From a virus: a stretch of 39,903 nt of DNA. A model generated the notes under the pieces. The model was given only the letters and a program-made list of their open reading frames with translations. It ran no database searches and was not told where the DNA came from. Where the stretch lies: IMG/VR virus record IMGVR_UViG_3300009436_002387, positions 1-39,903 of that record, one strand, 5' to 3'. A program made the translations under genes and the position numbers. This document shows positions 6,858 through 36,355 of this stretch, in pieces. The first letter of the stretch is position 1. Each line of letters starts with the position of its first letter.

Positions 6858-6889
6858 TTTGTTTTTTAGAACATTTTTTTGTATATTAG
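6858..6889 (+). promoter_or_regulatory. Bacteroidota-type promoter P2, inside the glycan island
   Basis: TTTG at 6858-6861, a 20-nt spacer, and TATATTAG at 6882-6889 preceded by TTG. It lies 18 nt before the gene at 6908 and would restart transcription for the second part of the island. The rest of the gap from 6805 shows no gene. Confidence 0.78.
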
Positions 6890-6907
6890 TATCAATAATA
6901 AAACATT

Positions 6908-9355: not shown

Positions 9356-9641
9356 TTTAGATAATACCTTATGTAAAACAGAAGGTAATTATTATGAAAA
9401 AGCTACACCTATTCAAAGTAGAATAGATAAGGTAAATAAATTATACGATGATGGTAATACCATCATTATAGATACGGCTAGAGGCTGTGTAAGTGGTAAG
9501 AATTGGTGGTATTTTACTGTTGAGCAATTAAAGGGATGGGGAGTAAAATTCCATACCTTACGAACTGGTGTTAAGTTTGGAGCAGATATATTCGTTGATG
9601 ATAAAGGATTTAATGATATAAACTTTTTTGATGGCAAGTAG
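9333..9641 (+). CDS. HAD-superfamily phosphatase of capsule type
   Basis: Encodes 102 residues. It has the HAD motif I FDLDNTLC (nucleophile and acid D8 and D10), motif II in IIIDTARG, and motif IV in VDDKGFND. There is no cap domain, which fits the small HAD enzymes found in capsule and lipopolysaccharide clusters that remove phosphate from sugar phosphates or intermediates. It overlaps the preceding gene by 23 nt and the following one by 11 nt, so it is tightly coupled to the island. A lysine for motif III is not obvious, apart from K68 in the WGVKFHTLRTGVKFG region. Confidence 0.75.
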   Translation: MNLIYCFDLDNTLCKTEGNYYEKATPIQSRIDKVNKLYDDGNTIIIDTARGCVSGKNWWYFTVEQLKGWGVKFHTLRTGVKFGADIFVDDKGFNDINFFDGK

Positions 9642-10962
9642 TAAAAATTACATAAAGAATTCACCAACAATTATTAAGAAATTGTATTATAGTTTAGTTC
9701 CTTTTCATAAAAGATATGGTAACGAATTTAAAAAAACCTATAAGTTTATTTCAGAAACATTAGATTGGAATGCTGATAAACTAAAAGAATACCAATTATC
9801 AGAATTAAAACGTGTTGTTAACAAATGTTATCATAACGTGCCATATTACCATAAACAGATGGTAGATTATGGAATTAATCCAAATATACATACATTTAGT
9901 GATATATCCAAATTACCTATTTTAACAAAAGATATTGTAAGGAACAATTTTGAAGATTTAGTTGATAAACGATATCTAAAAGATGCGATTTTATTTAAAA
10001 CAAGTGGTTCTACTGGAAAGAAGTTTGAGTTCTTAGGTAATGATAATCTTTATAAAAGAGAAGCTGCTTTTGTATTAAGAGCATTTAATTTACATGGAGC
10101 ATCTATGTATGATGAACATACAGTTTGGGTTAGAAGATATTCACCTAAAATGGGTGAACCATTAAGTTATGTTGATTATGAGTTAAATAGAACGTATATA
10201 TCACCTTTTAACATATCAAAGGATACTATTGTTGATTATGTTAATATGATTGATAAGACTAAATCTAAAACATTGGTAACGTACCCATCGTTAGCTAATT
10301 TCATATCAATATTAATGGGTAAGGTTGGATTACGATTCAAATATGTAAAATCAATTCATTGTGCTAGTGAGATGGTTCTTTCTGAATGGAGAGATAATGT
10401 AAAAAATAATTTGGGTATAGAGATATACGCACATTATGGTATGATGGAAAAGGTATCGTTCTTTTGTAATACAAGTAATTCTGATGGTAAATACGCTGAA
10501 AGTTTAGAGTATGGATATACTGAACTTATAGATAACAAAGTAATTGGAACTGGATTTCTAAATGATGTTATGCCACTTCTAAGATACGATAGTGGTGATT
10601 TAGCTATACCATCTAAAGATACGAATATGAGCTATGGTTCTTTACCAATATCAGTAGATGATTTTATAGGCAGACAGACCGATATGATAACTTGTAATGA
10701 TGGTAGGAATTTAGCAGGTGTTAATTTTTACACAATGATGTATAAAATTGAGGGTGTTGAGATGTTCCAAATCATTCAGAAATCATTAAATGATATAGAA
10801 GTAAAATTTATACCATCAACATCTTATTCAAATACTACTAAACAAAGTATCGCAGATGGTATGTTAGATAGAGTGGGTGAGTGTAACCTAACTATAAACG
10901 CAGTAACTGAATTTGAAAGAACATCTTCTGGTAAATTTAAAACAATTATAAATGAATCGTAA
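9631..10962 (+). CDS. CapK / phenylacetate-CoA ligase-like adenylate-forming enzyme
   Basis: Encodes 443 residues from ATG 9631; a TTG two codons earlier is possible but weaker. The motif LFKTSGSTGKKFEF (residues 121-134) is the ATP-phosphate loop of adenylate-forming enzymes, EIYAHYGMMEK is the AMP-binding YGxxE region, RYDSGD is the ribose-binding motif and ERTSSGKFKTII near the end carries the A10-type lysine. This layout is that of CapK and PaaK-like proteins. It should activate a carboxylic acid as an acyl-AMP for transfer to an amine or thiol. Next to an aminotransferase and a sugar-acid-forming dehydrogenase, it could form an amide on a sugar. This enzyme type is rare on phages. Confidence 0.8.
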   Translation: MASSKNYIKNSPTIIKKLYYSLVPFHKRYGNEFKKTYKFISETLDWNADKLKEYQLSELKRVVNKCYHNVPYYHKQMVDYGINPNIHTFSDISKLPILTKDIVRNNFEDLVDKRYLKDAILFKTSGSTGKKFEFLGNDNLYKREAAFVLRAFNLHGASMYDEHTVWVRRYSPKMGEPLSYVDYELNRTYISPFNISKDTIVDYVNMIDKTKSKTLVTYPSLANFISILMGKVGLRFKYVKSIHCASEMVLSEWRDNVKNNLGIEIYAHYGMMEKVSFFCNTSNSDGKYAESLEYGYTELIDNKVIGTGFLNDVMPLLRYDSGDLAIPSKDTNMSYGSLPISVDDFIGRQTDMITCNDGRNLAGVNFYTMMYKIEGVEMFQIIQKSLNDIEVKFIPSTSYSNTTKQSIADGMLDRVGECNLTINAVTEFERTSSGKFKTIINES

Positions 10963-11962
10963 TTTAGATAAAATATCACCATACATTGTTTCCGATAGAG
11001 AATACACATCTGATATGATTTATTTAGATTGGAATGAGGGCTATGAGTTATCCGATAGTATAATTGATAATATCACAGCAGAACTTCATAACACAAAATG
11101 GAATCAATATCCTGATTTATCATCAAAAGATTTATTAGATAGATTATCAGAATACACAAATACTGATAAGGAATTTATTCAAGTATACAATGGAAGTGAT
11201 TCAGCATTAGACCACTCATTTAGAATTCTACTAAACGATGGTGATAATGTAATTATTCCAGCTCCAAATTATAGTCAAATAAACCAAACAATAACATCAT
11301 TAGGTGGTATCATAAAATATTGTGATATTGGTAGGTTAGAAGAAACTATAAAAGAAACTAAAAATTTAAAAGTTGTTTATATCTCTAATCCTAATAATCC
11401 AATTGGGTATGTTTATGATATAAAACCATTAGTAAAAAAATATCCTGAGATATTCTTTATTGTAGATGAGGCCTATTACGAATTTAGTAAACAATATTCG
11501 ATGTTTGATTCCGCTTTTAGGTATCCAAATGTTATAGTTACAAGAACATTTTCAAAAGCTTTAGGATTAGCATCAATAAGATTAGGATATCTCACTTCAA
11601 ATTCGTATATTGTAAGTAAGTTGAGTAAGATAAAGAATTTCAAAGAGGTAAATCAGATAGCTCAAATAGCCGGTAAGGCTGTTTTAGATAATATTCATTT
11701 AGTTGAAGCTAGTATAATTCTTATGAAAACTATTAAAGATGAGTTTTTAGAAAGTATAAAGGGGGTTAGGGTTTATGATAGTCATTCAAACTTTGTATTA
11801 ATTGAACACCCATTGGTTAATAAGATAATATCAGATTTAAAAGATAATAACATATTAGTAAGAGATAGAAGTGATTACATAAATAATACTATGAGAATCA
11901 CTATTGGTAATGATTCTGATATGAAAACAGTTACAAATATAATAAACAAATATAGTGTATGA
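10952..11962 (+). CDS. PLP aminotransferase, HisC-like
   Basis: Encodes 336 residues of fold-type I. Motifs: YNGSDSALDH near residue 80 (phosphate binding), YISNPNNPIGYVYD near 143, IVDEAYYEF with D172, and TRTFSKALGLASIRLGY with PLP lysine K202 and R210. The order and length match histidinol-phosphate aminotransferase-like enzymes. No other histidine gene is present, and similar enzymes in capsule clusters aminate other substrates, so histidine synthesis is unlikely. It overlaps the upstream ligase by 11 nt and the downstream dehydrogenase by 4 nt; the three are probably one functional unit. Confidence 0.82.
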   Translation: MNRNLDKISPYIVSDREYTSDMIYLDWNEGYELSDSIIDNITAELHNTKWNQYPDLSSKDLLDRLSEYTNTDKEFIQVYNGSDSALDHSFRILLNDGDNVIIPAPNYSQINQTITSLGGIIKYCDIGRLEETIKETKNLKVVYISNPNNPIGYVYDIKPLVKKYPEIFFIVDEAYYEFSKQYSMFDSAFRYPNVIVTRTFSKALGLASIRLGYLTSNSYIVSKLSKIKNFKEVNQIAQIAGKAVLDNIHLVEASIILMKTIKDEFLESIKGVRVYDSHSNFVLIEHPLVNKIISDLKDNNILVRDRSDYINNTMRITIGNDSDMKTVTNIINKYSV

Positions 11963-13230
11963 AAACAAAAATATCATTTGTAGGTTTAGGTAAATTAGGA
12001 TTACCATTAGCTACCAATTTAGCTAAAAAAAGATTCTTAGTCGAAGGTATTGATTTGAATCAGAAAACAATAAAAACTCTGCAAAAGGGAAACGCTCCTT
12101 GGGTAGAAACTGATTTACAATCAAACATTGATTTAGCAGAAGATAATATAACATATACAACAAAGTATGATAACGTTCATAAATCCGATGTATCTATAAT
12201 ATTGGTAAATACACCAACTAATAAAAAGGATGGTTCTTTTTCTAATATATATGTAGAACAATCTTTGATTTCGTTATGTAATAATTTTGTAGAGAATGGT
12301 AAAAAATCACATCACTTTATATTATCATCTACAGTGATGCCCCGTTCTATTAAAGATACATTTATTCCATTGATTGAAAGTATCACTGGGTGGACTCTGA
12401 ATAAAGAATTCGGATTCAGTTATGTTCCTGATTTTGTAGCTATTGGTAAGATTATATATGATTTTGAAAATCCTGATTTCTTATTAATTGGTTCATCTAA
12501 TTCAGATTACGCTAATGAAGCAGAACAAATATATCTAAGAACAATCACAAATATACCAAAAGTTAAAAAACTGAATCTTGCTGAAGCGGAATTATCAAAG
12601 GTGGCTCTAAACGCATATATAACCACTAAAATATCATTCGCTAATTATTTGGGTATGTTAGCTGAAAAAGTAGATTCTACTATCAATGTAGATAATATAA
12701 CAAACACTATTGGATTGGATGCGAGAATTGGTACTAAGTATTTTAAAGCAGGTGGACCTTATGGTGGAACTTGTTTTCCAAGAGATACTTGGGCATTTGA
12801 AAAGATTTCTGAAAAGGTTGGATTATCATCAGCTCATATGTTAGCTAATGAAAAAATTAATGATGATATTGTAACTGAACTTTATAAAGATGTTATTGAA
12901 TCATCTCCATCAACTATTGGTTTTATCGGATTAGGATTCAAACCAGGAACATCTGTAGTTACGGAAAGTATGGCTGTAAAGTTGATGAAACGATTAAAAA
13001 ATTATTCTGCTAAAATCTTCGTTCACGATAAGTTAGATGAAACTTATACTAATTTTTACAAAGAAATTAGTGATGAAAAAAAAGATATATCTGAATGTTC
13101 TTCTGTTGATGAATTAATACCTAAATCAGAAGTAGTTGTTTATTGTAATGATGATTCATACGAAAAAATAACCACAATAATATCAGATATAGATACAATT
13201 AAAATAATAGACCCATGGAGAACGATTTAA
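11959..13230 (+). CDS. Nucleotide-sugar dehydrogenase (UDP-glucose/GDP-mannose dehydrogenase family)
   Basis: Encodes 423 residues. It has VGLGKLGLPLATNLAK for NAD binding (residues 8-23), the segment ELSKVALNAYITTKISFAN (residues 211-229) with conserved K214 and N218, and GGPYGGTCFPRDT with catalytic C272. The C-terminal domain includes IGFIGLGFKPGTS. Enzymes of this family oxidise a UDP- or GDP-sugar at C6 twice to give the uronic acid. The RDT after CFP, where PKD is common, is within the known range. The product, a sugar acid, would be a natural partner for the CapK-like enzyme. It overlaps the next gene by 16 nt. Confidence 0.86.
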   Translation: MKTKISFVGLGKLGLPLATNLAKKRFLVEGIDLNQKTIKTLQKGNAPWVETDLQSNIDLAEDNITYTTKYDNVHKSDVSIILVNTPTNKKDGSFSNIYVEQSLISLCNNFVENGKKSHHFILSSTVMPRSIKDTFIPLIESITGWTLNKEFGFSYVPDFVAIGKIIYDFENPDFLLIGSSNSDYANEAEQIYLRTITNIPKVKKLNLAEAELSKVALNAYITTKISFANYLGMLAEKVDSTINVDNITNTIGLDARIGTKYFKAGGPYGGTCFPRDTWAFEKISEKVGLSSAHMLANEKINDDIVTELYKDVIESSPSTIGFIGLGFKPGTSVVTESMAVKLMKRLKNYSAKIFVHDKLDETYTNFYKEISDEKKDISECSSVDELIPKSEVVVYCNDDSYEKITTIISDIDTIKIIDPWRTI

Positions 13231-14285
13231 AAGTATTATTTCTTAAACAGGCACATGATAATTTAGGACCTAAAAATTCTTATGGTTATGATGAAGATAT
13301 TAGTGCGTTAGAATTATTAAATCATTTTAATGGTAAGACAAGTTTATTCGAAAGCTTGTTATATTATAAATGTGATTTTGTAATCATACCAACTAAAGTA
13401 GTATCACCTTGGTTACACACATTATTACAACTTCCTAATTATCAAAAACATTTAGAAGAAAATACCACATCTGTTATAGAACCAACACATATTAATTTTG
13501 ATAATTATGATGTAGTTATAACACACGACCCCATATTACACCCATACATCAATGATTTAAAAGATAAGTATAAGAATACAGTTTTCAGTTACATATCCGT
13601 TGAACATTCAAGTTGGCAAGTTCACCAATATGGGTTTGAATATGATTTATGGTTAGACCATACATTGAATTCGGTATGGAATATTAGTAGATTACCACAA
13701 GCTATAAATTATGTTTTTCCAAGAGTTCCTGATATGGTACAATCTATGTTTGAGGGTGAGAGGGAATCTATATTTATTGATTATAGAAGTTATGGTTATT
13801 TTATATCAAATGGTAATAATAATGTAGCAATAACTCCAAATCAGATAGATGAGTTTAATAAAAATTTAAAATTTGATAATATAGAAATACCAATAGAACT
13901 TATAAGTGAAACCTCATTAAAACCATATATGTTTGTAACGGATGCAAATGATTCGATTGAATTCTATAAAAAAATGAATAGAGCTAAATATTTTGTAACA
14001 ATAGCTAACAGAGTAGGTCAATCTGCATTTGATGCATCTTCGATGGGGTGTTTGGTAATAGGTAATTCAAAATCTAAGATTCATAATCTTATATGCCATC
14101 CTGATTGTTTGATGAATGATGAGTTTACATATAATGATGTTTTAAAATTAATTGAAAAAATAGAATTAGATTCTGATTATTATGATATGTTATTATTAAA
14201 TCAAAATAAAAATTTACAAAAATATGGTGTAGATTATGATATGGATATTTTTAGAAAATCAGTTAAATTAAAAAGAAGTAAATAA
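13215..14285 (+). CDS. Probable glycosyltransferase (GT-B-like), divergent
   Basis: Encodes 356 residues. N-terminal strands (LKVLFLKQAHDNLG, YDVVITHDPIL) and a C-terminal block VGQSAFDASSMGCLVIGN, followed by a region on LMNDEFTYNDVLKLIEKI, resemble GT-B transferases, where a small-residue-rich helix after the donor strand and an E/D pocket bind the nucleotide. The usual E-x7-E is replaced by QSAFDASSMG, so donor binding may differ. This gene is especially AT-rich. It overlaps the dehydrogenase by 16 nt. Family assignment is tentative; a glycan modifying enzyme of another kind is possible. Confidence 0.5.
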   Translation: MENDLKVLFLKQAHDNLGPKNSYGYDEDISALELLNHFNGKTSLFESLLYYKCDFVIIPTKVVSPWLHTLLQLPNYQKHLEENTTSVIEPTHINFDNYDVVITHDPILHPYINDLKDKYKNTVFSYISVEHSSWQVHQYGFEYDLWLDHTLNSVWNISRLPQAINYVFPRVPDMVQSMFEGERESIFIDYRSYGYFISNGNNNVAITPNQIDEFNKNLKFDNIEIPIELISETSLKPYMFVTDANDSIEFYKKMNRAKYFVTIANRVGQSAFDASSMGCLVIGNSKSKIHNLICHPDCLMNDEFTYNDVLKLIEKIELDSDYYDMLLLNQNKNLQKYGVDYDMDIFRKSVKLKRSK

Positions 14286-14288
14286 AAT

Positions 14289-16319
14289 ATGAATACAAAC
14301 AACACATATACTACAGAGACTTTTGATTTTGGCGATTATAAATTTAAGTATGCCCATTGGGGACATCGATTTGTTGGTAAAGCAAAATTTACTTTAGATG
14401 ATATTTTGACTCAAACCACATATCTAAAAGAAGGTGATATTGTAATTGATATAGGGGGGTTTTCAGGAGATACTCCTGTACTTTATGCTAATGCCGTTGG
14501 TAGTACTGGTAAGGTTATTGCATTTGAACCAAACCCACATTCATATAGTGTACTAAATGTAAACGCAGAACTAAACTCACATTTAAACATACATCCTGTA
14601 AATAAAGCAATAACTGAAACAGAAGGAAACTACACATTTCATTATTCAGATGATGAATACTGTAATGGTGGATTTGCAACTGAGATTGATTTCGGAATCG
14701 GTGCTACGGGACACACCATACCATTAGATGTATCTGGTGTTAATTTAACCGAATGGATTGATACAAATTTAACTAAAGATGAAATAAATCGCATATCTTT
14801 CATAAAAATAGATACTGAGGGGTATGATTATAAAATATTACGTTCAAATAAAGAATTATTTAAAAGAATTAGACCAATACTTGAAGTTGAACTATACCCA
14901 GAATTAACTATTAAAGAAGTTAAAGAACTATATTTAATATTAACTGAAATTGGATATGATGTATTCAAACAAAACAATCGTAGAGATTGTTCATTAGAAT
15001 CAATAACACATAGTTTATCCGAATCCCAGTTTATTTATTTATTTAATAATATAAAAAGTGGAGAAGATATCGTAGCATATCCTTCAGAATTAATACCTAA
15101 AAATAAAAAAATGATTACAAAAAAAGATATAAGTTTCATTCAGCCGAGTAGAAACAATTTAAAATACCTAAAATGGTCTTACGATTCAATCAGAAAGAAT
15201 GGTGGACCCGAACCAACTATATGTGTTGCTGATGATTTCAGTAACGATGGAACTTGGGAGTGGTGTGAAGATATGATGGAGAAAGACCCAAACTTCAAAG
15301 CAATTAGAAACGAAGGACCTAAGAGATTAGGACATACGATTCTATATGATGAGTTGGTAGAGATAGCAGATACTCCGATTGTAGGGATATATCATGCTGA
15401 TATGTATTTGATGCCAGGTGCATTAGATTTCGTAGTAAAACATATTAAACCTCTAAGTGTTGTATCGTTGACTAGAATTGAACCACCATTACATCCTGAT
15501 GGTCCTGAGAAAATATTGATGGATTTTGGAATCGAACCTGAAGAGTTCAAAGAAGAAGAATTATTAGATTGGTTCAAAGATGTACAGATGAATCAAGCAA
15601 CAAAACAAACTGAAGGGATATTTGCTCCGTGGTTTATATTCAAAGAAGATTTTACATCAATCAATGGACATGACCCACTATTCGCACCACAATCAAAAGA
15701 AGATACTGATATCTTTAATCGATTCCATTTGAATGGGTATAAGTTTATTCAGACTTGGGGTGGTTGTGTATATCATATGACCTGTAGAGGTAGTAGATTT
15801 GCAGATGGAGCACAAAGAAATCCAAATGGTGAAGTGTTTATGAAAAATAGAGAAACTGATGAGTGGTTAACTCAGAATCAACGTTCAACTCGTAACTTTC
15901 TTAGGAAGTGGGGGCATATGTGTAAGCATGATTCATTGATGAAACCAATCGTACCACCAAAGTACAACATTCAGTTTATAATAGAGAATGGGAATCCTCA
16001 ACTATTAGAACTATTAGAACCTTGGTGTGATAATATTAATATATCAATTCCACAAACTGATATTGATTCATATATAGCAAAAGAACAACCTGATACTAAG
16101 ATAGATTTGAAGGAAAGAATCAACCAAAATGTATCAAATGATATACAAATTGTATTCGATGGAACTAAATTTTCACAAGATTCTTTTAACATAATTCAAC
16201 AGATGTCTGCCATACTTGAGTCTAATGAAATTGAGAGAGGTGAGTTCGAATTGGATATATTCAGAATAAAGGTGAATAGTACAAAAACATATACTCATCA
16301 ATTAATTTATAGAAAATAG
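14289..16319 (+). CDS. FkbM methyltransferase fused to a GT2 glycosyltransferase
   Basis: Encodes 676 residues. Residues 1-250 are an FkbM-type SAM methyltransferase: VIDIGGFSGDTPVLYA (SAM loop near 54), VIAFEPNPHSY, and ISFIKIDTEGYDYKIL. From about residue 275 a GT-A/GT2 domain follows: DISFIQPSRNNLKYLKWS, TICVADDFSNDGTWEW, and IVGIYHADMYLMPGALDF with HAD as DxD equivalent, then DPLFAPQSKEDTDIFNR. About 130 further residues are of unknown fold. One chain could add a sugar and O-methylate it, a way to cap a glycan. It is the last gene of the island, with a 3-nt gap upstream. Both halves look intact and the join is in frame. Confidence 0.82.
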   Translation: MNTNNTYTTETFDFGDYKFKYAHWGHRFVGKAKFTLDDILTQTTYLKEGDIVIDIGGFSGDTPVLYANAVGSTGKVIAFEPNPHSYSVLNVNAELNSHLNIHPVNKAITETEGNYTFHYSDDEYCNGGFATEIDFGIGATGHTIPLDVSGVNLTEWIDTNLTKDEINRISFIKIDTEGYDYKILRSNKELFKRIRPILEVELYPELTIKEVKELYLILTEIGYDVFKQNNRRDCSLESITHSLSESQFIYLFNNIKSGEDIVAYPSELIPKNKKMITKKDISFIQPSRNNLKYLKWSYDSIRKNGGPEPTICVADDFSNDGTWEWCEDMMEKDPNFKAIRNEGPKRLGHTILYDELVEIADTPIVGIYHADMYLMPGALDFVVKHIKPLSVVSLTRIEPPLHPDGPEKILMDFGIEPEEFKEEELLDWFKDVQMNQATKQTEGIFAPWFIFKEDFTSINGHDPLFAPQSKEDTDIFNRFHLNGYKFIQTWGGCVYHMTCRGSRFADGAQRNPNGEVFMKNRETDEWLTQNQRSTRNFLRKWGHMCKHDSLMKPIVPPKYNIQFIIENGNPQLLELLEPWCDNINISIPQTDIDSYIAKEQPDTKIDLKERINQNVSNDIQIVFDGTKFSQDSFNIIQQMSAILESNEIERGEFELDIFRIKVNSTKTYTHQLIYRK

Positions 16320-17867: not shown

Positions 17868-20800
17868 ATGAAAAATTATTTAAAATTTCTGTTATTGATG
17901 ATTCCAATGTTAGGAATTGTACAATCAGTAAAAGCACAAACCAGTTGGTTCAACTTAGAGGTTCAATTTGACTTCTACGGCCCTTCTGAATCATTTACTC
18001 TGATTACGCAAGCCGGAGATACATTAGTTAATTATCAACCAACAGTACCGTACGAGTTCTATCAAACATTAGTTTACGCAGATTCAGGTGATGTAGAAAT
18101 ATCACTATATGATTCATTCGGAGATGGTTGGATAGATGCAGCAAACACATTATCAAACATTACTCTATCAAATGATTGTCAAGGAACAATCTTAGATTTA
18201 GATTTAAACTTCGCATTTACACAATACGATACAATAGTTAACTTATTGGCATGTCCACCACCAATTACTGGTTGTATGGACCCAAATTCAGCTTCTTATA
18301 ACCCATTAGCTACGGTTAATAACCCTGCGATGTGTACATATGCAGTTGAGTTTTCATTAAATATGAATAATTACCCAGATGCATTTACTACACCCGGAGT
18401 TAGTGGTGAATTTGATAATTGGTCTGGTAATATTCCTATGTTAGACCCAGATGGTGATAATATATGGACACAAACTGTTTACATATCTCCTGGTCAATAT
18501 AAATGGAAGTATATGTTGGATAGTTGGAACGAACAAGAATTACCAACAAACGTACAGAATGACCCATACGCAAGTTGTTTTGTATTAGACCAATATGGAT
18601 TTACAAATAGAACTTTAGATGTAGGTGTTGATTCAGTACAAACACTACCTACATATTGTTGGGAAAGTTGTTATGATTGTGGAACTGTTTTAGGTTGTAC
18701 AGACCCTACATCAAATACATATAACCCTTGGGCAACCACCGATGATGGAAGTTGTGCAGTTAGTGGACCTACGGGATGTGGAACAGACCAAACATATATA
18801 GAATTAGTATTTACCCCAGATAACTGGCCAAATGAAACAAGTATAATAGTTTATGATGATAACGGAGCAGTGTTTAACGAACCAGTTGGGGCATTCACAG
18901 GTAAACCTGCTGGTATCCCAATTTCACATTTTATTTGTGTAGATACAAATGTATTAGTAGATGTAATTATCGGAGATTCTTATGGAGATGGATTAGCAGG
19001 TTCAACATCAGGTGGTAATGTAGATGGTAATGTACAAGTATTTGATTGTGATGGAGCTGTGTTATTTGATTTACTAGCAGATAATGGTACAGTAAACTTT
19101 GGATACCAATATACATCACCACAATTTAGTACAGGTGATATTTGTTCATATAACAGTACGGATATATTCGGTTGTATGAACCCATTCTCAACAACATATG
19201 ACCCAGCTGCAACAATAGATGATGGAAGTTGTGGACCAGCAAGAGTATTAGGTTGTACAGACCCTAACTCATTCAACTATGATTCTACAGCAAATCAATC
19301 AGAAATAATGCAGGGTGATTACACATTAACACTTAGTGATGGAGCTGCGAACGGATGGAGTGGAACTTGGTTAGGTATTAAACAAGGTAATAATTTATCA
19401 CCACAATATAAGATGGGCCCGAATGATGGTAGTTCAATTACATTCAACAACGTTCAGTTAAATATTTTTGAACCAATTAAACTTTACTTATTCACAACTC
19501 AACAATCAGCACAAACCATAAATCAGGTAGGATACACATTAACAGGTCCGACTGGTGATACAATTGTAGATGTACCTTATTTTACAGCAGGACCATTACA
19601 ATTCCCAGTGTGCCAATCAACAACTGCACAACCATTCTTTGGTGATGTATGTGTTCCTGTAATTTTAGGATGTATGGATTCAACTTCACTTAATTACATT
19701 CAACCAATTGGAGACCCGATGGTAGATGTAAACACAGATGATGGAAGTTGTATTGCAATTGTAGAAGGGTGTATGAATCCTTTAGCATTTAATTACAATC
19801 CAAACGCAAACGTAGATGATGGAAGTTGTATTCCTGTAATCGTAGGTTGTATGGATTCAACACAATATAATTACGACCCATTAGCAAATACACCAGGCGC
19901 TTGTATTCCATTTATTTATGGTTGTACTGATGATACACAATTCAACTATGACCCTAATGCAAATACAGATGATGGTAGTTGTATTCCATTTATTTATGGT
20001 TGTACAGACCCAACATCATTTAATTATGATTCAACTGCAAATACAGATGATGGTTCGTGTATCCCAATAGTATATGGTTGTATGGATTCAACACAATTCA
20101 ATTACGACCCATTAGCAAATACAGATGATGGTTCTTGTATTCCCTTTATATATGGGTGTATGGATGTTAACTCATTAAATTATGACCCATTAGCAAATAC
20201 AAACCAAACATCAGCAACAGATTTATCTAATCCTTGTATCCCAATAGTATATGGGTGTATGGATTCAACTCAATATAATTATGACCCGAATGCAAATGTA
20301 GATAATGGTAGTTGTGTTCCTTTCGTTTACGGATGTATGGACCCGACTTCTTTAAATTACAATCCATTAGCAAATACCAATCAGGTATCTGAAACAGACT
20401 TAACAAACCCTTGTATTGCTATTGTTTATGGTTGTATGGATTCAACATCATTCAACTATGACCCTAACGCTAACGTAGATAATGGTTCTTGTATTCCATT
20501 TATTTATGGGTGTATGGACCCGAATTCATTTAACTATGACCCTACTGCAAATACAAACCAAACATCGGCAACCGATTTATCAAATCCGTGTATTCCGATT
20601 GTGTATGGTTGTACTGATTCAACTTCAGTAAACTATGACCCATTAGCAAACGTTGATAATGGTTCTTGTATCGAATCAATAGTAGGGTGTACAGATGTAT
20701 CAGCTTACAACTATGACCCAACGGCTAACGTATCTGATTCAACTGCATGTTTATACGATGCAGGTTGTGTTGGTGGACCAGGTAATCCTTATTGGTTAAA

Positions 20801-21158
20801 CAATCCTTGTTATGCATGGGTAATTGATGTAGATAGTTATTGTTGTGATACTGAATGGGATTCTGATTGCCAGAGTTTATATCAATATTGTTATGATGGG
20901 TATCCATTAGATATTTCAGAATTAGGTGGTAAGATGATTGCAGTTTACCCTAATCCAACAAAAGATGTTCTTAACGTAACAACATCTTTGAACAATGTTA
21001 AATTTGATTTATTTGATTTATCTGGAAGAAAATTAAGAAGTGGTGAAAACCAAAAAAGAGCAGAAGTTGATATGAGAAATCTACCTATCGGAATTTATAT
21101 ACTTCAGGTAAATTATGATGGAAACATTTATAATAAGAAAATAGTGAAAGAGGATTAA
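17868..21158 (+). CDS. Type IX secretion system cargo: large Cys-rich repeat protein
   Basis: Encodes 1096 residues. A signal peptide (MKNYLKFLLLMIPMLGIVQS, then VKAQ) is followed by a beta domain with DSFGDGW (to about 125), a stretch near 160-235 that looks like an AMPK/CBM48-type carbohydrate-binding domain (VSGEFDNWSGNIPML, then PGQYKWKYMLD), and a second beta domain with GDSYGDGL. Seventeen repeats of the form GC-x-D-x3-x-NYDP-x-AN-x-DDGSC run from residue 135 to 961, thirteen of them in a dense array from residue 601. A CCDTEWDSDC module follows, and residues 1023-1096 (AVYPNPTKDVLNV, LFDLSGRKL, GIYILQV, KKIVKED) are a type A T9SS sorting domain. It should be exported, cleaved and attached to or shed from the cell surface. 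Such proteins are normal in marine flavobacteria but surprising between phage lysis genes. Confidence 0.88.
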   Translation: MKNYLKFLLLMIPMLGIVQSVKAQTSWFNLEVQFDFYGPSESFTLITQAGDTLVNYQPTVPYEFYQTLVYADSGDVEISLYDSFGDGWIDAANTLSNITLSNDCQGTILDLDLNFAFTQYDTIVNLLACPPPITGCMDPNSASYNPLATVNNPAMCTYAVEFSLNMNNYPDAFTTPGVSGEFDNWSGNIPMLDPDGDNIWTQTVYISPGQYKWKYMLDSWNEQELPTNVQNDPYASCFVLDQYGFTNRTLDVGVDSVQTLPTYCWESCYDCGTVLGCTDPTSNTYNPWATTDDGSCAVSGPTGCGTDQTYIELVFTPDNWPNETSIIVYDDNGAVFNEPVGAFTGKPAGIPISHFICVDTNVLVDVIIGDSYGDGLAGSTSGGNVDGNVQVFDCDGAVLFDLLADNGTVNFGYQYTSPQFSTGDICSYNSTDIFGCMNPFSTTYDPAATIDDGSCGPARVLGCTDPNSFNYDSTANQSEIMQGDYTLTLSDGAANGWSGTWLGIKQGNNLSPQYKMGPNDGSSITFNNVQLNIFEPIKLYLFTTQQSAQTINQVGYTLTGPTGDTIVDVPYFTAGPLQFPVCQSTTAQPFFGDVCVPVILGCMDSTSLNYIQPIGDPMVDVNTDDGSCIAIVEGCMNPLAFNYNPNANVDDGSCIPVIVGCMDSTQYNYDPLANTPGACIPFIYGCTDDTQFNYDPNANTDDGSCIPFIYGCTDPTSFNYDSTANTDDGSCIPIVYGCMDSTQFNYDPLANTDDGSCIPFIYGCMDVNSLNYDPLANTNQTSATDLSNPCIPIVYGCMDSTQYNYDPNANVDNGSCVPFVYGCMDPTSLNYNPLANTNQVSETDLTNPCIAIVYGCMDSTSFNYDPNANVDNGSCIPFIYGCMDPNSFNYDPTANTNQTSATDLSNPCIPIVYGCTDSTSVNYDPLANVDNGSCIESIVGCTDVSAYNYDPTANVSDSTACLYDAGCVGGPGNPYWLNNPCYAWVIDVDSYCCDTEWDSDCQSLYQYCYDGYPLDISELGGKMIAVYPNPTKDVLNVTTSLNNVKFDLFDLSGRKLRSGENQKRAEVDMRNLPIGIYILQVNYDGNIYNKKIVKED
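19668..20750 (+). repeat. In-gene tandem array of 13 Cys repeats
   Basis: Thirteen units of about 66-93 nt, each encoding GC(M/T)D...NYDP.AN...C. Two unit types alternate in the second half: a short unit ending in DDGSC or DNGSC, and a long unit ending in NQTSATDLSNPC. Several units differ at only a few bases, so copy number may change by recombination. This is a protein-coding repeat in frame throughout, not a CRISPR array. Confidence 0.92.
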
Positions 21159-25313: not shown

Positions 25314-25925
25314 ATGAAGAAGATAGATTTTATAAACAAAGTATTTAAAACAGAATCAGAGATACTAAACGAAGCACCGCAAGGTAGAATACTCAGAGTT
25401 TTTGATTTTGATGATACACTTGCCAAATCAACTGCATTCATCTATGTAAAACACAAAGATGGTTCTGAGAGTAAGTTAGACCCAGCTCAATATGCAAAAT
25501 ATAATTCTAAAACAACCGATGTGTTTGATTTTAGAGATTTCAACAAAATGTTGAATAACCCGAAGTTAATCCAAAAGAACTTTAAACTCCTACAAAAAAT
25601 GTTGGATAATCCTAACAAAAAAGTTACGATACTTACCGCACGAAAACTTGCATTTCCTGTTACAAAGTTCTTCAAAGATGAATTTGGTATGGATGTGTAT
25701 GTAGTGGCGTTAGGAAGTAATAATCCAAAAGATAAATCTGATTGGATTGAGAAACATATCAAAAAAGGATATACTGATATTGCATTTATGGATGATTCAT
25801 CTAAGAACATCAGAGCAGTAGATAAACTTAAATCAAAATACCCTGATGTAAGGATAAAAACTCACTTAGTTAAAGAGCATATTGATGTAGAAATACAAAA
25901 ATATGTAAATAAACTAATTCACTAA
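25314..25925 (+). CDS. HAD-superfamily phosphatase
   Basis: Encodes 203 residues. After a 25-residue lead (FINKVFKTESEILNEAPQGR) it has HAD motif I VFDFDDTLAKS, motif II ILTARKL, and motif IV FMDDSSKNI. The segment on NPKDKSDWIEKHI holds a possible motif III lysine. The inserted part between motifs I and II (KLDPAQYAKYNSK, then FDFRDFNKML) acts as a small cap. It resembles the phosphatase half of phage polynucleotide kinase-like enzymes more than the capsule type at 9333, but no kinase half is attached. The substrate could be a nucleotide or a nucleic-acid 3' phosphate. Confidence 0.75.
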   Translation: MKKIDFINKVFKTESEILNEAPQGRILRVFDFDDTLAKSTAFIYVKHKDGSESKLDPAQYAKYNSKTTDVFDFRDFNKMLNNPKLIQKNFKLLQKMLDNPNKKVTILTARKLAFPVTKFFKDEFGMDVYVVALGSNNPKDKSDWIEKHIKKGYTDIAFMDDSSKNIRAVDKLKSKYPDVRIKTHLVKEHIDVEIQKYVNKLIH

Positions 25926-25948: not shown

Positions 25949-26191
25949 ATGAACTACGAAAAAGAAGTAATGGAACAGGCATATAATATACTCACCAAAA
26001 AGAATTTTGAGTGGGGGTCTGAATTCAATTTAGAAATGAAAAAATCATTTCTGAAACTCCTTTTAGATTATTTTACAGAAATTGAACATTATGAGAAATG
26101 TGCGATTATCTTAAAATTACAAAAAAATAGTACGGAGAATATGAATGGAAATTTTAGTAAAACAAATTTCACAGGAAGTGGAATCAGTTAA
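25949..26191 (+). CDS. Small helical protein, function unknown
   Basis: Encodes 80 residues. The first 55 are strongly helical (YEKEVMEQAYNILTKKNFEW, then SFLKLLLDYFTEIEHYEKCA). The last 20 (NSTENMNGNFSKTNFTGSGI) are low in hydrophobics and overlap the next gene by 47 nt in another frame, so this tail may be a by-product of the overlap. It is first behind the ATATTTATA motif. No family is recognised. Confidence 0.6.
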   Translation: MNYEKEVMEQAYNILTKKNFEWGSEFNLEMKKSFLKLLLDYFTEIEHYEKCAIILKLQKNSTENMNGNFSKTNFTGSGIS

Positions 26192-26306
26192 AGGTTGGAT
26201 AGTTTACGTTATGGATGTAAATGGAAGGCCTTTAAAAGCAGAAATATGTGAGTTGGATGAGTTAGTACCAACTATAACAAAATTAGAATCAGTTTTTAAT
26301 ATATGA
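26145..26306 (+). CDS. Very small beta-rich protein, function unknown
   Basis: Encodes 53 residues (MEILVKQISQEVESVKGWIV, then YVMDVNGRPLKAEICELDEL). The pattern is a beta hairpin with a DVNGRP turn followed by an acidic end. It overlaps the previous gene by 47 nt and the ClpS-like gene by 4 nt, an arrangement that suggests translational coupling. Function unknown. Confidence 0.55.
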   Translation: MEILVKQISQEVESVKGWIVYVMDVNGRPLKAEICELDELVPTITKLESVFNI

Positions 26307-26524
26307 AACTATTTATACTAAATGATGATGTGAATTCTTTTGAACACGTCGTTAGATGTATTCAACGATATTTAAACTATCCTTATATGCAAGGGTTATC
26401 TATCGCTGATTTAATTCACAACACTGGGGAGTGTTTGGTGAAGGAATCTGATGATGAAGTGTTAATAAAAGGAATTTACAAAGTATTAGTAAAAGAAGGT
26501 TTACGTTTAAGAATAGAAGGTTAA
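26303..26524 (+). CDS. clpS: ClpS-like N-degron adaptor
   Basis: Encodes 73 residues. ClpS binds proteins with destabilising N-terminal residues and hands them to the ClpAP or ClpCP protease. The sequence follows the ClpS core: FILNDDVNSFEHVVRCIQRY, with N7, D8 and D9 of the (L/Y)NDD motif that contact the substrate alpha-amino group, then DLIHNTGECLVKE with H39 of the V-H-x-x-G motif, then a strand GLRLRIE. Bacteroidota ClpS has NDDVNTFDxV at the same place. The length is that of the core domain with no N-terminal extension, the part that in E. coli inhibits or moves ClpA action. It could redirect host proteolysis during infection. Confidence 0.68.
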   Translation: MKLFILNDDVNSFEHVVRCIQRYLNYPYMQGLSIADLIHNTGECLVKESDDEVLIKGIYKVLVKEGLRLRIEG

Positions 26525-26525: not shown

Positions 26526-26711
26526 ATGGAAAAGTCAAAAGGTTTAGGAGACACTATAAAGAAAGTTACATCAGCTACTAAGTTGGATGTGCTTGCTGAA
26601 AAGATTGCTCATAGGTTGGGTAAGGCAGATTGTGGTTGTTCTAAACGCCAGGATTATCTTAACGTTAAGTTCCCATATCCTGATGCTATTAATAAATCAA
26701 AGGGTAAGTAA
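26526..26711 (+). CDS. Small Cys-containing phage protein
   Basis: Encodes 61 residues. The pattern KGLGDTIKKVTSATKLDVLA, then CGCSKRQDYLNVKFPYPD, is one I recognise as a recurring small protein of phages and mobile elements: a GLGDT(I/V) start, a helix and a C-G-C-x2-R-Q-x2-L-N-x2-FPY end. The role is not known; a virion or zinc-linked function is possible. It shares its last base with the start of the 811-residue gene. Confidence 0.65.
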   Translation: MEKSKGLGDTIKKVTSATKLDVLAEKIAHRLGKADCGCSKRQDYLNVKFPYPDAINKSKGK

Positions 26712-29146
26712 TGAATTTAAAAGAATTTTTACAAAAAACAATAAAAACTACTATCAATGGTATGATAAGTGAAGATACTCAATTAGACCAAGCATTCAAC
26801 GATGCTAAACCTGTTGAAGAAAGTGCAATGAGTGAATTAGATTTGTTAGCTAGAGAAGCTAGGGATTTAAAATCATTTATTAAAACTGTTTATAAAGAAT
26901 TTGATAATTTACCTAAGAGTAAAGATACCCTAAAGTGGTTAGAAGATATATATCTATCAGTAACAACCGATGAACATATAGAAGAATCAGCTAAAAGAGA
27001 TTACAAAAAAGAATACGCAAAGTACGGAAAATCTGAGAAAGCAAAGAAGTATAGAGCAGAACTAAATAAGTACAATAGAGATAAAGGTACTTATGGTAAT
27101 GGTGATGGTAAAGATGCATCTCACAAAGGTGGTAAGATTGTTGGGTTCGAAGATGAATCTAAGAACAGAGGTAGAGCTGAGAAAAGTAGATTGAAGAAAG
27201 AAGCAACATTCGTACCAAATTCAGGTACTATGAGTGGTGGTGTTCTTCGATTAGATAATAGAAAGTATCAATTAAAAAAAGATATTAAGAATGTAACGAT
27301 TGGTATTTACATAGTAACATTACCTAAAGGAACTATTCTGTATAACATAGCTGGTGGTTTATTCGCAGACCATAAATCTTTAGAACAATATGAAACTAAA
27401 AATCTAAGATACTTCAAAAAATCTACATTTAGAGGAATTCAGATTAAACAAAAAACAGATGTAATAAAAGATATTGATAAAAACTCTAAAGTATTAGAAT
27501 CAATAAACGAATTTGATTCATCTATCAACAAACGAAGAGCTGGTGCTGAATTAAAACAAAAATTAAAAGGTAAACGTTCTGATGGAATGGGTAAATATAC
27601 TGCTACTATTTATGGATTAGATTCAAAAGGTAAAAGAGTTGAATTAAAAAGTTTAAATGATTTAAACAAATACTCTAAATTTGAAATTGATGAATCAGTA
27701 AACGAAGGTAAATACTACATTACTCGTAACTTAGGTAGAGGGCAGGGTAAAGCATTAATTAGAAAGTACGATATAAAAAAGCAAAAAACTAGTGATAAAC
27801 CAACAGAGTTTAAATCATACAAAGATGCTCAAAAAGAAGTAGAGAAACTCCAAAGGGGTGGTTCTATGGGTGGACAGATGACAGCATATATCATTACTGA
27901 TAAAAATATGAATCCATTAACCGAAGAACAAATTGATGAAAAACTAATCACATTCTCAAACAGAGCACCTTATGGACAGATAGTGTTTATGGCAGGTGGA
28001 GCTGGTAGTGGTAAAGGATTCGCAATTGATAACTTTATTGATTCTGCAGGATTCAAGGTAAGAGATGTTGATGAGATGAAGAAATCAGTTGGTAAGTTAG
28101 ACCAATTAGGTAAATTCTCAGTTGATAAGTGGTATAAAAAGTATGGTAAGAAATTATCAGATAAGCCAGGTAAAGATGGTGGGTTATCACCAAAAGCTCA
28201 TATTGAAGAATTTATGTTAGGTAAGGGATTATCTATTTCAGATATCTCAAAAGATTTAAGGAATCCTAATAATGTAGCATCGTTACATTATATCGTAGAT
28301 TCTATGGGATTGAAAGATAAATGGGTAATCTCAATGTTGAGTGGTAAGGATAACAAAGAAACGTTACCAAACCTATTGTTTGATATTACGGCTAAGAAAG
28401 TATCATCAATCACAGAAGTAATCAAACCAATGGTAAATGCAGGCTATGATGTTAAAAACATTCACCTTATTTGGGTACTTGCTAACTTCCACGTTGCAAT
28501 TAAAGCAAATAAGGAAAGAGATAGAATGGTTCCTGAGGATATTCTATTACAAACGCATGAAGGTGCTGGTAAAACTATGTGGGAAATTATGACTAAGATA
28601 TTACCAAAAGGATTAAATGGTAGAATTGATGTTATCCTAAACAAAAGAGCAGAAACAGTTCCTTATGTAGATTCCAATGGAAAGCCAATTATGGTACAAC
28701 CAAATCAGAAAAATAAACTTAAAGATGCACAGATTGTAGTTAAAGGATTCACATCACTACCAATCAAAAAGCAAGGTGGTGGGGTACAACCTGAAGCAGC
28801 TTGGAAGGAAATCTTAAAGAAGTGGATATTGAATAACGCTCCAAAAACAATTGATTTATCTCAACAACTTGGAGAAGGTAACAACGATTACTTTAAAACA
28901 GCAGGTGAAGCAGTTGAGTTCGCTAAGAACGCAGCTGAGAAAAAAGGGTTTGATATTGATGAAGATGACTGGAACTCTCAAATCACTATGGGTGGTAAAT
29001 ATAACAGATTAAGACCAGGTGTTGGTAAAACACATTCATTCCAAATTGGATTACTTAAAAAAGGCAAACCTCAGAGAAAAGGATTAGCTATATCATTATA
29101 TGGTATGGATAGTGGTAAATACGAACTAACACATTACATAAACTAG
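26711..29146 (+). CDS. Large multi-domain P-loop protein of phage type
   Basis: Encodes 811 residues. Residues 1-90 are helical and acidic. Residues 95-160 hold a basic motif (KKYRAELNKYNRDKGTYGNG, GKDASHKGG, then NRGRAEKSRLK) like an HNH-related or DNA-binding segment in phage proteins. Residues 165-250 look like a beta domain, and 330-395 a smaller one. A P-loop lies at 429-436 (GGAGSGKG), in a zeta toxin/PNK-like context (QIVFMAGGAGSGKGFAIDNF), with DVDEMK and a later IHLIWVLANFHVAIKANKERDRM that could carry the lid. The last 90 residues form another domain (FKTAGEAVEFAKNAAEKKGF). It is perhaps a packaged or early-acting kinase-like effector. Confidence 0.68.
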   Translation: MNLKEFLQKTIKTTINGMISEDTQLDQAFNDAKPVEESAMSELDLLAREARDLKSFIKTVYKEFDNLPKSKDTLKWLEDIYLSVTTDEHIEESAKRDYKKEYAKYGKSEKAKKYRAELNKYNRDKGTYGNGDGKDASHKGGKIVGFEDESKNRGRAEKSRLKKEATFVPNSGTMSGGVLRLDNRKYQLKKDIKNVTIGIYIVTLPKGTILYNIAGGLFADHKSLEQYETKNLRYFKKSTFRGIQIKQKTDVIKDIDKNSKVLESINEFDSSINKRRAGAELKQKLKGKRSDGMGKYTATIYGLDSKGKRVELKSLNDLNKYSKFEIDESVNEGKYYITRNLGRGQGKALIRKYDIKKQKTSDKPTEFKSYKDAQKEVEKLQRGGSMGGQMTAYIITDKNMNPLTEEQIDEKLITFSNRAPYGQIVFMAGGAGSGKGFAIDNFIDSAGFKVRDVDEMKKSVGKLDQLGKFSVDKWYKKYGKKLSDKPGKDGGLSPKAHIEEFMLGKGLSISDISKDLRNPNNVASLHYIVDSMGLKDKWVISMLSGKDNKETLPNLLFDITAKKVSSITEVIKPMVNAGYDVKNIHLIWVLANFHVAIKANKERDRMVPEDILLQTHEGAGKTMWEIMTKILPKGLNGRIDVILNKRAETVPYVDSNGKPIMVQPNQKNKLKDAQIVVKGFTSLPIKKQGGGVQPEAAWKEILKKWILNNAPKTIDLSQQLGEGNNDYFKTAGEAVEFAKNAAEKKGFDIDEDDWNSQITMGGKYNRLRPGVGKTHSFQIGLLKKGKPQRKGLAISLYGMDSGKYELTHYIN

Positions 29147-33166: not shown

Positions 33167-33400
33167 ATGAAAGATTTAAAAACAGTGTTTTGGGCATTAT
33201 TTGGATTCATAGTAGTCCTAATATTGTGGGTATTAATATTTACTTCACCATTCTATTGGATGTGGAATTGTATTATATCCCCCAAATTCAATTTACCACA
33301 TCTAACATTCACAGAAACGTTCTTTATCATATTGGTAATGAAGTGGTTATTTAGTACGTCTGATATCAAAAGTATCAAACAAAAAATAGATAATAAATGA
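33167..33400 (+). CDS. Small membrane protein
   Basis: Encodes 77 residues with two membrane segments (ALFGFIVVLILWVLIFTSPF and TFFIILVMKWLFST) separated by WNCIISPKFNLPHLTFTE, and a basic end (KSIKQKIDNK). The MWNxxI-x-P-x-F-x-LP-x-(I/L)T pattern recurs in small membrane proteins of marine phages, with no known function. It overlaps the HNH gene by 4 nt. Confidence 0.65.
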   Translation: MKDLKTVFWALFGFIVVLILWVLIFTSPFYWMWNCIISPKFNLPHLTFTETFFIILVMKWLFSTSDIKSIKQKIDNK

Positions 33401-33999
33401 AAAAAGGTGATGTAATGCCAAACGGATTTGTGTTGGGAAGGGGAAGAGAACCTCTCAACTTAACTGAAGCTCAGATTCGGTATGCGATGAAGAACTCCAA
33501 ATCCAATAGTGGTGCTGCTAGATTCCTTAATATATCACTTACAACATATGAGAAGTATTCAAAAAGATACATTGATTCTGAAAGTGGTAAACATCTTTGG
33601 GATTTACAAAAGAACAAAAGAGGTAAGGGTGTTAAGAAACCATACAATATCACAAAGGGTAAATACGCACTTAAAGATATATTAGAAGGTAAGTATCCAC
33701 AATATTCAGTACATCAGTTAAAGAACAGATTATTGAATAATTCAGATAAGGTTGATTTTAAACCTTGTTGTCATAATTGTGGGTATGATGAGAAACGTAT
33801 TACAGATGATAAAGTACCATTGATATTAGACCATATTAATGATAATTGGAAAGACCATATTATAGAGAACCTTAGATTCCTATGTTATAATTGTTTCCAC
33901 AATTTAAAAGGTAATCTAAGAGGTGGGCAACCACAATGGAGAGTAGAACAAATTCAGAAAGCAAAAGCAACTATTAAATCAAATAAAAAAGAAGAATAA
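33397..33999 (+). CDS. HNH endonuclease with N-terminal helix-turn-helix
   Basis: Encodes 200 residues. Residues 15-60 look like a DNA-binding helix-turn-helix (LTEAQIRYAMKNSKSNSGAA, then FLNISLTTYEKY). From about residue 122, CCHNCGYDEKRITDDKVPLI is followed by LDHINDNWKDHIIENLRFLC and YNCFHNLKG, an HNH nuclease core in which two CxxC pairs bind a structural zinc and DH-N-H are active. Such proteins in T4-like phages are commonly free-standing homing enzymes or cut host DNA. It is placed between an operon of tiny genes and the chaperonin operon without disturbing any gene. Confidence 0.82.
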   Translation: MKKGDVMPNGFVLGRGREPLNLTEAQIRYAMKNSKSNSGAARFLNISLTTYEKYSKRYIDSESGKHLWDLQKNKRGKGVKKPYNITKGKYALKDILEGKYPQYSVHQLKNRLLNNSDKVDFKPCCHNCGYDEKRITDDKVPLILDHINDNWKDHIIENLRFLCYNCFHNLKGNLRGGQPQWRVEQIQKAKATIKSNKKEE

Positions 34000-34197: not shown

Positions 34198-35802
34198 ATG
34201 GGTAAAGAAATATATCACGGAAAAGAAAGTAGAGAGAAGCTACTTAAAGGTGTAAATGAATTAGCAAATGCAGTTAAAGTTACATTGGGACCGAGAGGTA
34301 GAAATGTAATCATCGAAAGAGATGGAGCACCTCACATTACAAAAGATGGTGTAACTGTAGCAAAATCTATAGAGTTTTCAGATTCATCAATGAATTTGGG
34401 AGCACAGATTATAAAAGAGGCATCTCAACAAACTGCTGATAACGCAGGTGATGGAACAACCACATCTACAGTATTAGCTCAACATATCTTTAATGAAGGT
34501 ATGAAGCAGGTTGAGAATGGTTCTAATCCAATCGAACTATACAGAGGTATGCAGATTGGTGTAAAAGAAATTGTTAAGAATCTTATTGAAGTAGTATCTA
34601 AAGATATTAAATCAAATGAAGCAATTAAGAACATCGCTACAATCTCAGCAAACGGAGATGAAGAAATCGGTGGTATTATTTCAGAAGCAATTCATCAGGT
34701 AGGTAACGATGGTGTTGTAACTGTAGAAGAAGGAAACTCAAATGAAACTTCATTAGAGATTGTAGAAGGATTAGAATTTGATAAAGGATACCTATCTCAC
34801 TTCTTTATGAATAATCAATCTAAATTGGCTAGTATCTTAGAAGAACCTAACATTCTATTGTTTGATGGTAGGATTTCACAAATGGATGATATCTTAGGAA
34901 TCTTAGAATCATCATCTATGAACAACAAACCAATCGTAATCATCGCTCATGATGTAGATGGTGAGGCATTGGCAAGTATGGTTGTGAACGCAGCTAGAGG
35001 AACTCTAAAATGTTTAGCAGTAAAAGCTCCTGGCTTTGGTTCTGAAAGAAAAGAGATTCTAAAAGATATAGCAGCTCTGACTGGAGCAACTGTTGTTGGT
35101 GATGAATTGGGTGTTACATTGGAAGAAGTATCAGAAGAGCATTTTGGAACTTGTGATAAAGTAGTATCAGATAAATTGAAAACAGCTATCATTGGTGGAC
35201 ATGGAACTGAAGAAAATATTCATAGTAGAATTGGTTTAATCAAAACTGAAAAACTAAAGGTTGAATCTGATTTCGAAAAGGAAAAATTAGAAAACCGATT
35301 AGCAAAACTAAGTGGTGGTGTAGCAGTTATCAAAGTAGGAGCAGAATCTGAGGTTGAATTGAAAGAGAAGAAAGATAGAGTAGATGATGCTATCTTATCA
35401 ACAAAAGCAGCATTAGAAGAAGGTATTGTTCCCGGTGGTGGAGTTGCACTGATTCATTCTAAGAACCAAACCGATAGACCTAGTGGATTATCAACCGATA
35501 GAGGTATTGGTGTAGATATTGTGTATTCAGCATGTGAATCACCATTCAGAGCAATTATTGAAAATGCAGGTATTTCAGCAGATTCATTAATTGAAAAACT
35601 AAACTCACCACTAGCAAATAACTCAAATGTAGGTTATGATGTTAGAACTGAAGAGTTTGGTGATTTGATTGAAGCGGGAGTTGTAGACCCTACAAAAGTA
35701 ACTAGAACGGCAATTGAAAAAGCAGTTTCTGTTGCGGGTACACTACTTACTACTGAATGTATGGTAGTAATGGAGCCCGAGGTCGATGAAAGTAAATCTT
35801 AA
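34198..35802 (+). CDS. groEL: GroEL-type chaperonin without GGM tail
   Basis: Encodes 534 residues, close to 548 in E. coli. It has VTLGPRGRNVIIERDGAPHI (residues 29 onward), ITKDGVTVAKSIEF, AGDGTTTSTVLAQ (nucleotide loop with the catalytic-aspartate region), AVKAPGFGSERKEILKDIAA, and GIVPGGGVALIH. The equatorial, intermediate and apical domains appear complete, but the end is MEPEVDESKS without the GGM repeats that line the cavity floor in bacterial GroEL. Phage chaperonins of this kind can work with or without a GroES. No groES is in the window. Its last codons overlap the J-protein gene by 17 nt, so the two chaperone genes are coupled. Confidence 0.94.
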   Translation: MGKEIYHGKESREKLLKGVNELANAVKVTLGPRGRNVIIERDGAPHITKDGVTVAKSIEFSDSSMNLGAQIIKEASQQTADNAGDGTTTSTVLAQHIFNEGMKQVENGSNPIELYRGMQIGVKEIVKNLIEVVSKDIKSNEAIKNIATISANGDEEIGGIISEAIHQVGNDGVVTVEEGNSNETSLEIVEGLEFDKGYLSHFFMNNQSKLASILEEPNILLFDGRISQMDDILGILESSSMNNKPIVIIAHDVDGEALASMVVNAARGTLKCLAVKAPGFGSERKEILKDIAALTGATVVGDELGVTLEEVSEEHFGTCDKVVSDKLKTAIIGGHGTEENIHSRIGLIKTEKLKVESDFEKEKLENRLAKLSGGVAVIKVGAESEVELKEKKDRVDDAILSTKAALEEGIVPGGGVALIHSKNQTDRPSGLSTDRGIGVDIVYSACESPFRAIIENAGISADSLIEKLNSPLANNSNVGYDVRTEEFGDLIEAGVVDPTKVTRTAIEKAVSVAGTLLTTECMVVMEPEVDESKS

Positions 35803-36355
35803 AAAATTAGTATATCAGTATAGATACTTAAATTTAGAACTGGGTGAACTCAAAGACCAACAAGCAGAGTTGACAATTGAGTTTGAAAGTGAGTTTAGTG
35901 ATATTATTAAAGATGATGGTAAAACACAAATACCTGAAAATAAAGATACTAAGACTAAATCGGTACATACAGATGAAAGTGTAAAAGATATATATAAAAA
36001 GACAGCAAAGAAATTACATCCTGATAAGGGTGGTGATGAAGAAGAATTTAAGGAATTAAATAAACGTTACAAATCTAACGATTTGTTAGGTGTAATTGAT
36101 TTAGCTGTTGATAATAAGATTGAAATTGATTATAGTGAAGATGATTTGGAATTAATGAATTCATCAGTTGAAAATTTAAAAACTAAAATAGAAGATTATA
36201 AAAATAAAATAGCCTATGTTTGGAAATATGGAACAACACTTCAGAGAAAGCAAGTGTTAAGTACATTATCCAATCATTTGGGTAGACCTATAGATGTTGA
36301 AGATTTAACTGATGAACAAAAAGTAAAAATAGGAATAGATTTGGATATTAAATAA
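35786..36355 (+). CDS. J-domain (DnaJ-like) co-chaperone
   Basis: Encodes 189 residues. A helical N-terminal region (about 1-40) is followed by a short J domain near residues 65-100: VKDIYKKTAKKLHPDKGGDE with the HPD motif that stimulates Hsp70 ATPase, and EEFKELNKRYKSNDLLGVID. The rest is helical and acidic (ENLKTKIEDYKNKIAYVWKY). The G/F region and zinc repeats of full DnaJ are missing, so it would direct host DnaK to a specific task. It overlaps groEL by 17 nt and its 3' end carries the TTTG of promoter P8. Confidence 0.8.
   Translation: MKVNLKKLVYQYRYLNLELGELKDQQAELTIEFESEFSDIIKDDGKTQIPENKDTKTKSVHTDESVKDIYKKTAKKLHPDKGGDEEEFKELNKRYKSNDLLGVIDLAVDNKIEIDYSEDDLELMNSSVENLKTKIEDYKNKIAYVWKYGTTLQRKQVLSTLSNHLGRPIDVEDLTDEQKVKIGIDLDIK

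Follow-up and report, generated by a model that had tools for sequence, protein, structure and literature searches.

Cryo-EM of the Escherichia coli ClpAPS complex has placed the N-terminal extension (NTE) of the adaptor ClpS in the grip of the ClpA pore loops; blocking NTE entry inhibits substrate delivery, and the force exerted on the NTE is believed to reshape ClpS and thereby release its substrate (PMC9663308). ClpS is also degraded by ClpAP in vivo, and truncation of the NTE abolishes this degradation (PMC12974527). Since truncation stops degradation, a form of the protein reduced to its core should be stable. Older NTE truncation studies, those of Roman-Hernandez in 2011, Rivera-Rivera in 2014 and Torres-Delgado in 2020, reportedly agree.

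Reviews and genome papers have already mentioned ClpS proteins encoded by phages (PMC7824862; PMC6102473). Such genes are common in IMG/VR, where our scan of viral contigs recovered at least 218 ClpS stretches, and the novelty that a sequence-only reading of the present locus had implied for a phage ClpS finds no support. The unusual part of this locus is its N-terminus, which has no NTE. The jumbo and huge phages Agrobacterium phage Atu_ph07 (gp708), Serratia phage BF and its relatives, and LR756502/LR745206, like the uncultured marine phage that encodes A0A8D9CC24, carry a ClpS domain that in some cases is near 35–38% identical to ours, but the proteins we looked at are longer (A0A8D9CC24, 96 amino acids; LR756502, 93 amino acids with an NTE), and some of these phages also encode Clp ATPases (PMC6102473). 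One putative viral record of 121.7 kb, G015 (L155 7958–11147 and L156 9326–10015), encodes an NTE-bearing ClpS, two genes downstream of it a ClpC-type ATPase of 850 amino acids and, about 56 kb away, a ClpP-family protein scoring 243 bits to PF00574; the huge phages LR756502 and LR745206 pair ClpS with an ATPase related to that of G015. In the literature that we searched, with most subscription papers outside its scope, no natural NTE-less ClpS is described. We put the chance at about even that the protein reported here is a core-only binder of N-degrons, competing with the host ClpS–ClpCP system instead of serving it.

A core-only ClpS-domain protein on a phage record

The window, meaning the whole stretch of 39,903 nucleotides that was analysed, is an IMG/VR virus record (IMGVR_UViG_3300009436_002387) and is syntenic with records of 169 kb and 113 kb that encode a tail sheath, a baseplate wedge, a DNA polymerase, a sliding-clamp loader, a DnaB-like helicase and a head maturation protease. 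Judged by these tail, baseplate, replication and head-protease genes, the window represents part of a marine, T4-like myovirus of Bacteroidota; we infer the host from a protein with a type IX secretion sorting domain (PF18962) in the window and from the resemblance of the phage ClpS to Bacteroidota ClpS. The gene under study is the following.

26303..26524, + strand: core-only ClpS-domain protein of 73 amino acids (evidence: PF02617, AF2 and Foldseek, 13 relatives, pocket tally)

This open reading frame of 73 codons, which starts with ATG and stops with TAA, matched the PF02617 (ClpS) profile over positions 7–65 of 80 with E=9.4e-10 and 38.6 bits, above the Pfam gathering cut-off of 23 bits; it missed the NCBIfam ClpS equivalog cut-off (best 28.2 bits versus 117), where the models describe full-length proteins. 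A homologue-based AF2 model, built from an alignment of 52 sequences, reached a mean pLDDT of 97.2 and displayed the order strand-helix-helix-strand-helix-strand (strand 2–6, helices 13–24 and 28–41, strand 43–48, helix 52–64, strand 68–72). When this model was compared with the PDB by Foldseek, ranks 1–38 were all ClpS proteins at TM scores of about 0.7–0.87, and phage ClpS were among its matches in a viral library. With a profile built from the phage family only, the best PDB sequences were E. coli ClpS (E=8e-4) and Caulobacter ClpS (E=6e-3), while a wider profile matched ClpS of several bacteria, Plasmodium and Arabidopsis. TetR and hexokinase, which appeared beside ClpS at E values of 0.02–0.3 in a single-sequence PDB search, were dismissed as chance on the strength of the profile searches. 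For the 73-residue protein a ClpS-core fold is a high-confidence prediction. The sequence-only reading had proposed a ClpS-like protein on a phage, to be abandoned if there were no ClpS profile match or a different fold; with PF02617 matched and a ClpS fold predicted, the proposal is upheld by profile, fold, degron-contact residues and phage context alike. Its placement of the NDD motif at residues 7–9 and of the V/I-H-x-x-G motif, here I-H-N-T-G, at residues 38–42 was also correct.

An in-frame stop excludes the NTE

26297..26299, + strand: in-frame TAA one codon 5′ of the ClpS ATG (evidence: sequence; equal spacing in 14 of 14 loci)

The protein begins at its first core strand (residues 2–6 of the model), and an in-frame stop stands exactly one codon ahead of the ATG both in the window and in all 13 viral relatives (IMG/VR loci, 58–89% identical over the full length). 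This stop excludes an in-frame NTE and rules out an overlooked upstream start; the absence of an extension, claimed earlier from the single sequence, is thereby strengthened across 14 loci. A ΔNTE E. coli ClpS construct (core 27–106) has the same extent and likewise starts at the first core strand, but that construct is a laboratory truncation, whereas the phage gene is natural and conserved.

Bacteroidota ClpS genes leave more room. In flavobacterial ClpS, 26 residues precede NDD (80/80), and a more diverse set of 28 Bacteroidota ClpS had open frames of 26 codons or more ahead of NDD, 26 being the minimum. Of 80 Bacteroidota genomes drawn, 78 carried ClpS, with every ClpS open frame at least 91 amino acids long; no Bacteroidota ClpS gene examined could, from stop to stop, encode so short a form. 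Nearly all of the other phage ClpS (106 loci, including some duplicate copies of identical contigs) have room for at least 24 residues ahead of the motif, and most other Bacteroidota-phage ClpS retain the NTE. A separate phage clade of nine distinct sequences (L227, L251, L254, L265, L267, L269, L270, L275 and L278) has 12 residues ahead of the ND motif, corresponding to an NTE of about six residues, with an in-frame stop nearby. This is apparently an independent shortening of the NTE and would be a partial parallel to the NTE-less family, which itself forms a single clade (support 99/99) on a long branch in a tree that, at 72 columns, does not tell host from phage ClpS as its origin.

A fixed gene cassette surrounds ClpS

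The ClpS gene is the fourth in a cassette whose other members are as follows.

25314..25925, + strand: HAD-type phosphatase, polynucleotide-kinase-phosphatase-like, first cassette gene (phrog_415 E=6e-9; kept in 13 of 13 relatives)
25949..26191, + strand: p80, 80 amino acids, overlaps p53 (adjoins ClpS in 13 of 13 relatives and in a second phage lineage)
26145..26306, + strand: p53, 53 amino acids, predicted beta-beta-beta-alpha fold, its TGA overlapping the ClpS ATG
26526..26711, + strand: p61, 61 amino acids, directly 3′ of ClpS (in 13 of 13 relatives; weak PHROG matches)

The order HAD phosphatase, p80, p53, ClpS, p61 was the same in every relative (13/13), and the overlap between the p53 stop and the ClpS start read ATGA in 14 of 14 loci, an arrangement which suggests translational coupling of the two genes; a −1 frameshift fusing p53 to ClpS is conceivable and would count against a core-only product. 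The p53 model is confident, but its best structural match, at E about 1, was not significant, and the idea of p53 as a recognisable partner was dropped.

A second, distantly related phage lineage (L046, L048, L051 and L053) keeps the order p80-like gene, small gene of 70 amino acids, ClpS, with the genes overlapping or adjacent. Profiles matched its p80 (E=2e-12) and its ClpS (E=5e-15), and the middle gene weakly, the homology between p53 and the 70-residue protein being weak (E=0.0017, probability 15%). ClpS of this lineage is extended at its N-terminus by about 20 residues that are highly basic in composition, and the L051 protein has a Met where the proteins of the window family begin, which suggests that the extension could be lost by simple relocation of the start to this Met.

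Other genes nearby and elsewhere were recorded. In the huge phage LR756502 (L167 7390–7914) a HAD-type phosphatase gene lies directly 5′ of ClpS, recalling the HAD gene of the window cassette; this may be chance. Directly 3′ of the cassette, positions 26711–29146 of the window encode an 811-residue protein that contains a P-loop kinase-like region (phrog_5268). Its N-terminal MNLKEFLQ helix recurs in several proteins of these phages and is possibly a head-targeting sequence. A zinc-finger/HNH homing-endonuclease-like protein (33397–33999; PADLOC HEase profile E=5e-5) has counterparts of about 87% identity in both G006 and G004, and L046 and L051 encode a similar protein near ClpS. A GroEL chaperonin (34198–35802; phrog_5725 E=2e-160) is overlapped by a gene for a partial J-domain (35786–36355; PF00226 E=4.5e-6, just under the cut-off), so that, with ClpS, three proteostasis genes fall within a 10-kb stretch. 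Positions 17868–21158 encode a 1096-residue repeat protein whose N-terminus is signal-like and whose C-terminal part is a type IX secretion sorting domain (PF18962 E=1e-11); this protein is apparently addressed to the host T9SS, and G004 encodes a homologue at 80775–84287. Positions 3627–16319 hold apparent glycosyltransferase, sugar-nucleotide and methyltransferase genes amid conserved core genes; the run is partly swapped for other genes in G004 and G006 and looks, from its sequence, like a variable surface-sugar cassette.

Purifying selection on the family

Across the family 30 columns are invariant, including N7, D8, N11, F13, V16, H39 and G42, and the N-terminal octapeptide MKLFILND does not vary. 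The pairwise pN/pS has a median of about 0.2, although in many pairs the synonymous sites approach saturation; by this measure the gene is under purifying selection. Taken together, the 13 relatives, the low pN/pS and the fixed gene order make the reading frame more than chance. A selfish or decaying, functionless remnant of a host ClpS might be suspected from a protein so short and divergent (about 28–34% identical to flavobacterial ClpS) that falls below the NCBIfam equivalog cut-offs. We regard such a remnant as highly improbable, given the pN/pS, the invariant octapeptide, the confident fold, and an operon position and start context that are fixed in 14 loci.

The degron pocket and the Clp-docking face

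In Caulobacter ClpS the α-amino group of the degron is contacted by N47, D49 and H79 (PMC12493166), and these residues map to N7, D9 and H39 of the phage protein. Among ten distinct phage sequences N7, D8, N11, F13, V16 and H39 were invariant, and D9 was replaced by Asn in one. The predicted specificity pocket comprises I5, L6, N7, D8, N11, F13, V16, A35, I38 and H39; it matches the Bacteroidota ClpS type at positions 11, 13, 16, 35, 38 and 39 and differs at position 6, which is Leu in the window protein versus Tyr in Bacteroidota ClpS. The residues for the α-amino group and for the side chain of an N-degron are, on this mapping, kept, and degron binding is predicted. Relative to E. coli and Caulobacter ClpS, the phage protein shares the fold (TM up to 0.87), the Asn/Asp/His α-amino contacts and the set of pocket positions, but lacks the NTE and has a one-residue insertion in α3; the gatekeeper Met40 of bacterial ClpS is Phe in the phage protein, as it is in flavobacterial ClpS. 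N11, F13, V16, A/S35, H39 and a GKC.VK stretch after the His are common to the phage protein and its flavobacterial and Bacteroidota counterparts, although flavobacterial ClpS is only about 28–34% identical and has the NTE and a QAEQC helix motif, both of which the phage family lacks.

The docking face is less uniform. Of the E. coli ClpA-docking residues E79, E82 and K84, only E79 has a likely equivalent, E52, which was kept in nine of the ten distinct sequences; the positions of 82 and 84 differ, in flavobacterial ClpS too, in a part of the alignment that contains an insertion. Conservation was 0.96 on the β1/loop side of the pocket versus 0.52 in α3, the Clp-docking face in E. coli, with an overall value of 0.76. 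This asymmetry would suit a reader of N-termini that works without proteolysis, in which the pocket would chaperone or scaffold processed phage proteins, or p80/p53, and Clp would play no part; the tight coupling to p53 and p80, and the p80–ClpS pairing retained in the second lineage, point the same way. Other phage ClpS that possess an NTE, however, scored 0.32 in α3 against 0.51 overall, so α3 is relatively as variable there and offers no specific sign of lost docking. For the same reason we dropped the idea that loss of the docking face had accompanied loss of the NTE. We know of no ClpS that works as a non-proteolytic reader, and consider this role rather unlikely for the phage protein.

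The host pathway and the proposed role during infection

Likely hosts of the phage hold a complete ClpS N-degron pathway, as judged from their gene content: ClpS was found in 78 of 80 Bacteroidota genomes and L/F-transferase in 19 of 20, and a ClpA/C-type ATPase with a Clp_N domain was present in nine of nine. The best-scoring models for this ATPase were ClpB/ClpA, below their cut-offs, and the region in which the UVR motif of ClpC lies gave a weak McsA-type match. The records of the phage family, most of which are fragments, yielded no Clp_N protein and no L/F-transferase. A phage that brings its own Clp machine was rejected, since no Clp_N was found in the mostly fragmentary records of the relatives and the one ClpP-like match, in the close relative G006, scores best as a head maturation protease. 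Membership of a known anti-phage-defence family was also rejected, as PADLOC gave no match.

According to the competitor hypothesis that we prefer, the phage ClpS would, during infection, bind proteins whose N-termini are destabilising, the N-domain of the host ClpC-type ATPase, or both. Having no tail for pore threading, it could not be remodelled for substrate hand-over and would act as a stable competitor which damps host ClpS-dependent N-degron proteolysis. N-degron-bearing phage or host proteins would then be spared and/or ClpCP would be freed from the host adaptor.

The phage protein might instead be a working delivery adaptor, if Bacteroidota ClpC needs no NTE, and steer ClpCP to chosen N-degron substrates. 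These would be host factors or phage proteins after processing, and jumbo-phage ClpS has been proposed to act in this way. The intact pocket, the strong constraint, the resemblance of most other Bacteroidota-phage ClpS, with their NTE, to plain adaptors and a published suggestion for phage ClpS (PMC7824862) are consistent with delivery; nevertheless none of the 14 loci has an NTE, for which every host ClpS leaves room, and delivery in E. coli depends on the NTE (PMC9663308). We hold a delivery role to be a serious but improbable alternative. Between active substrate choice and competition, the conserved absence of the NTE, combined with the need of E. coli ClpAP to pull on it (PMC9663308), tilts the balance towards competition or sequestration; the NTE requirement is a rule of E. 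coli ClpAP, and the ClpC of Bacteroidota may not follow it.

A natural core-only ClpS would be a substrate trap supplied by evolution, one that could reveal the N-degron proteins that are important in infection, and it would directly test whether ClpC-type machines obey the NTE rule of E. coli ClpAP.
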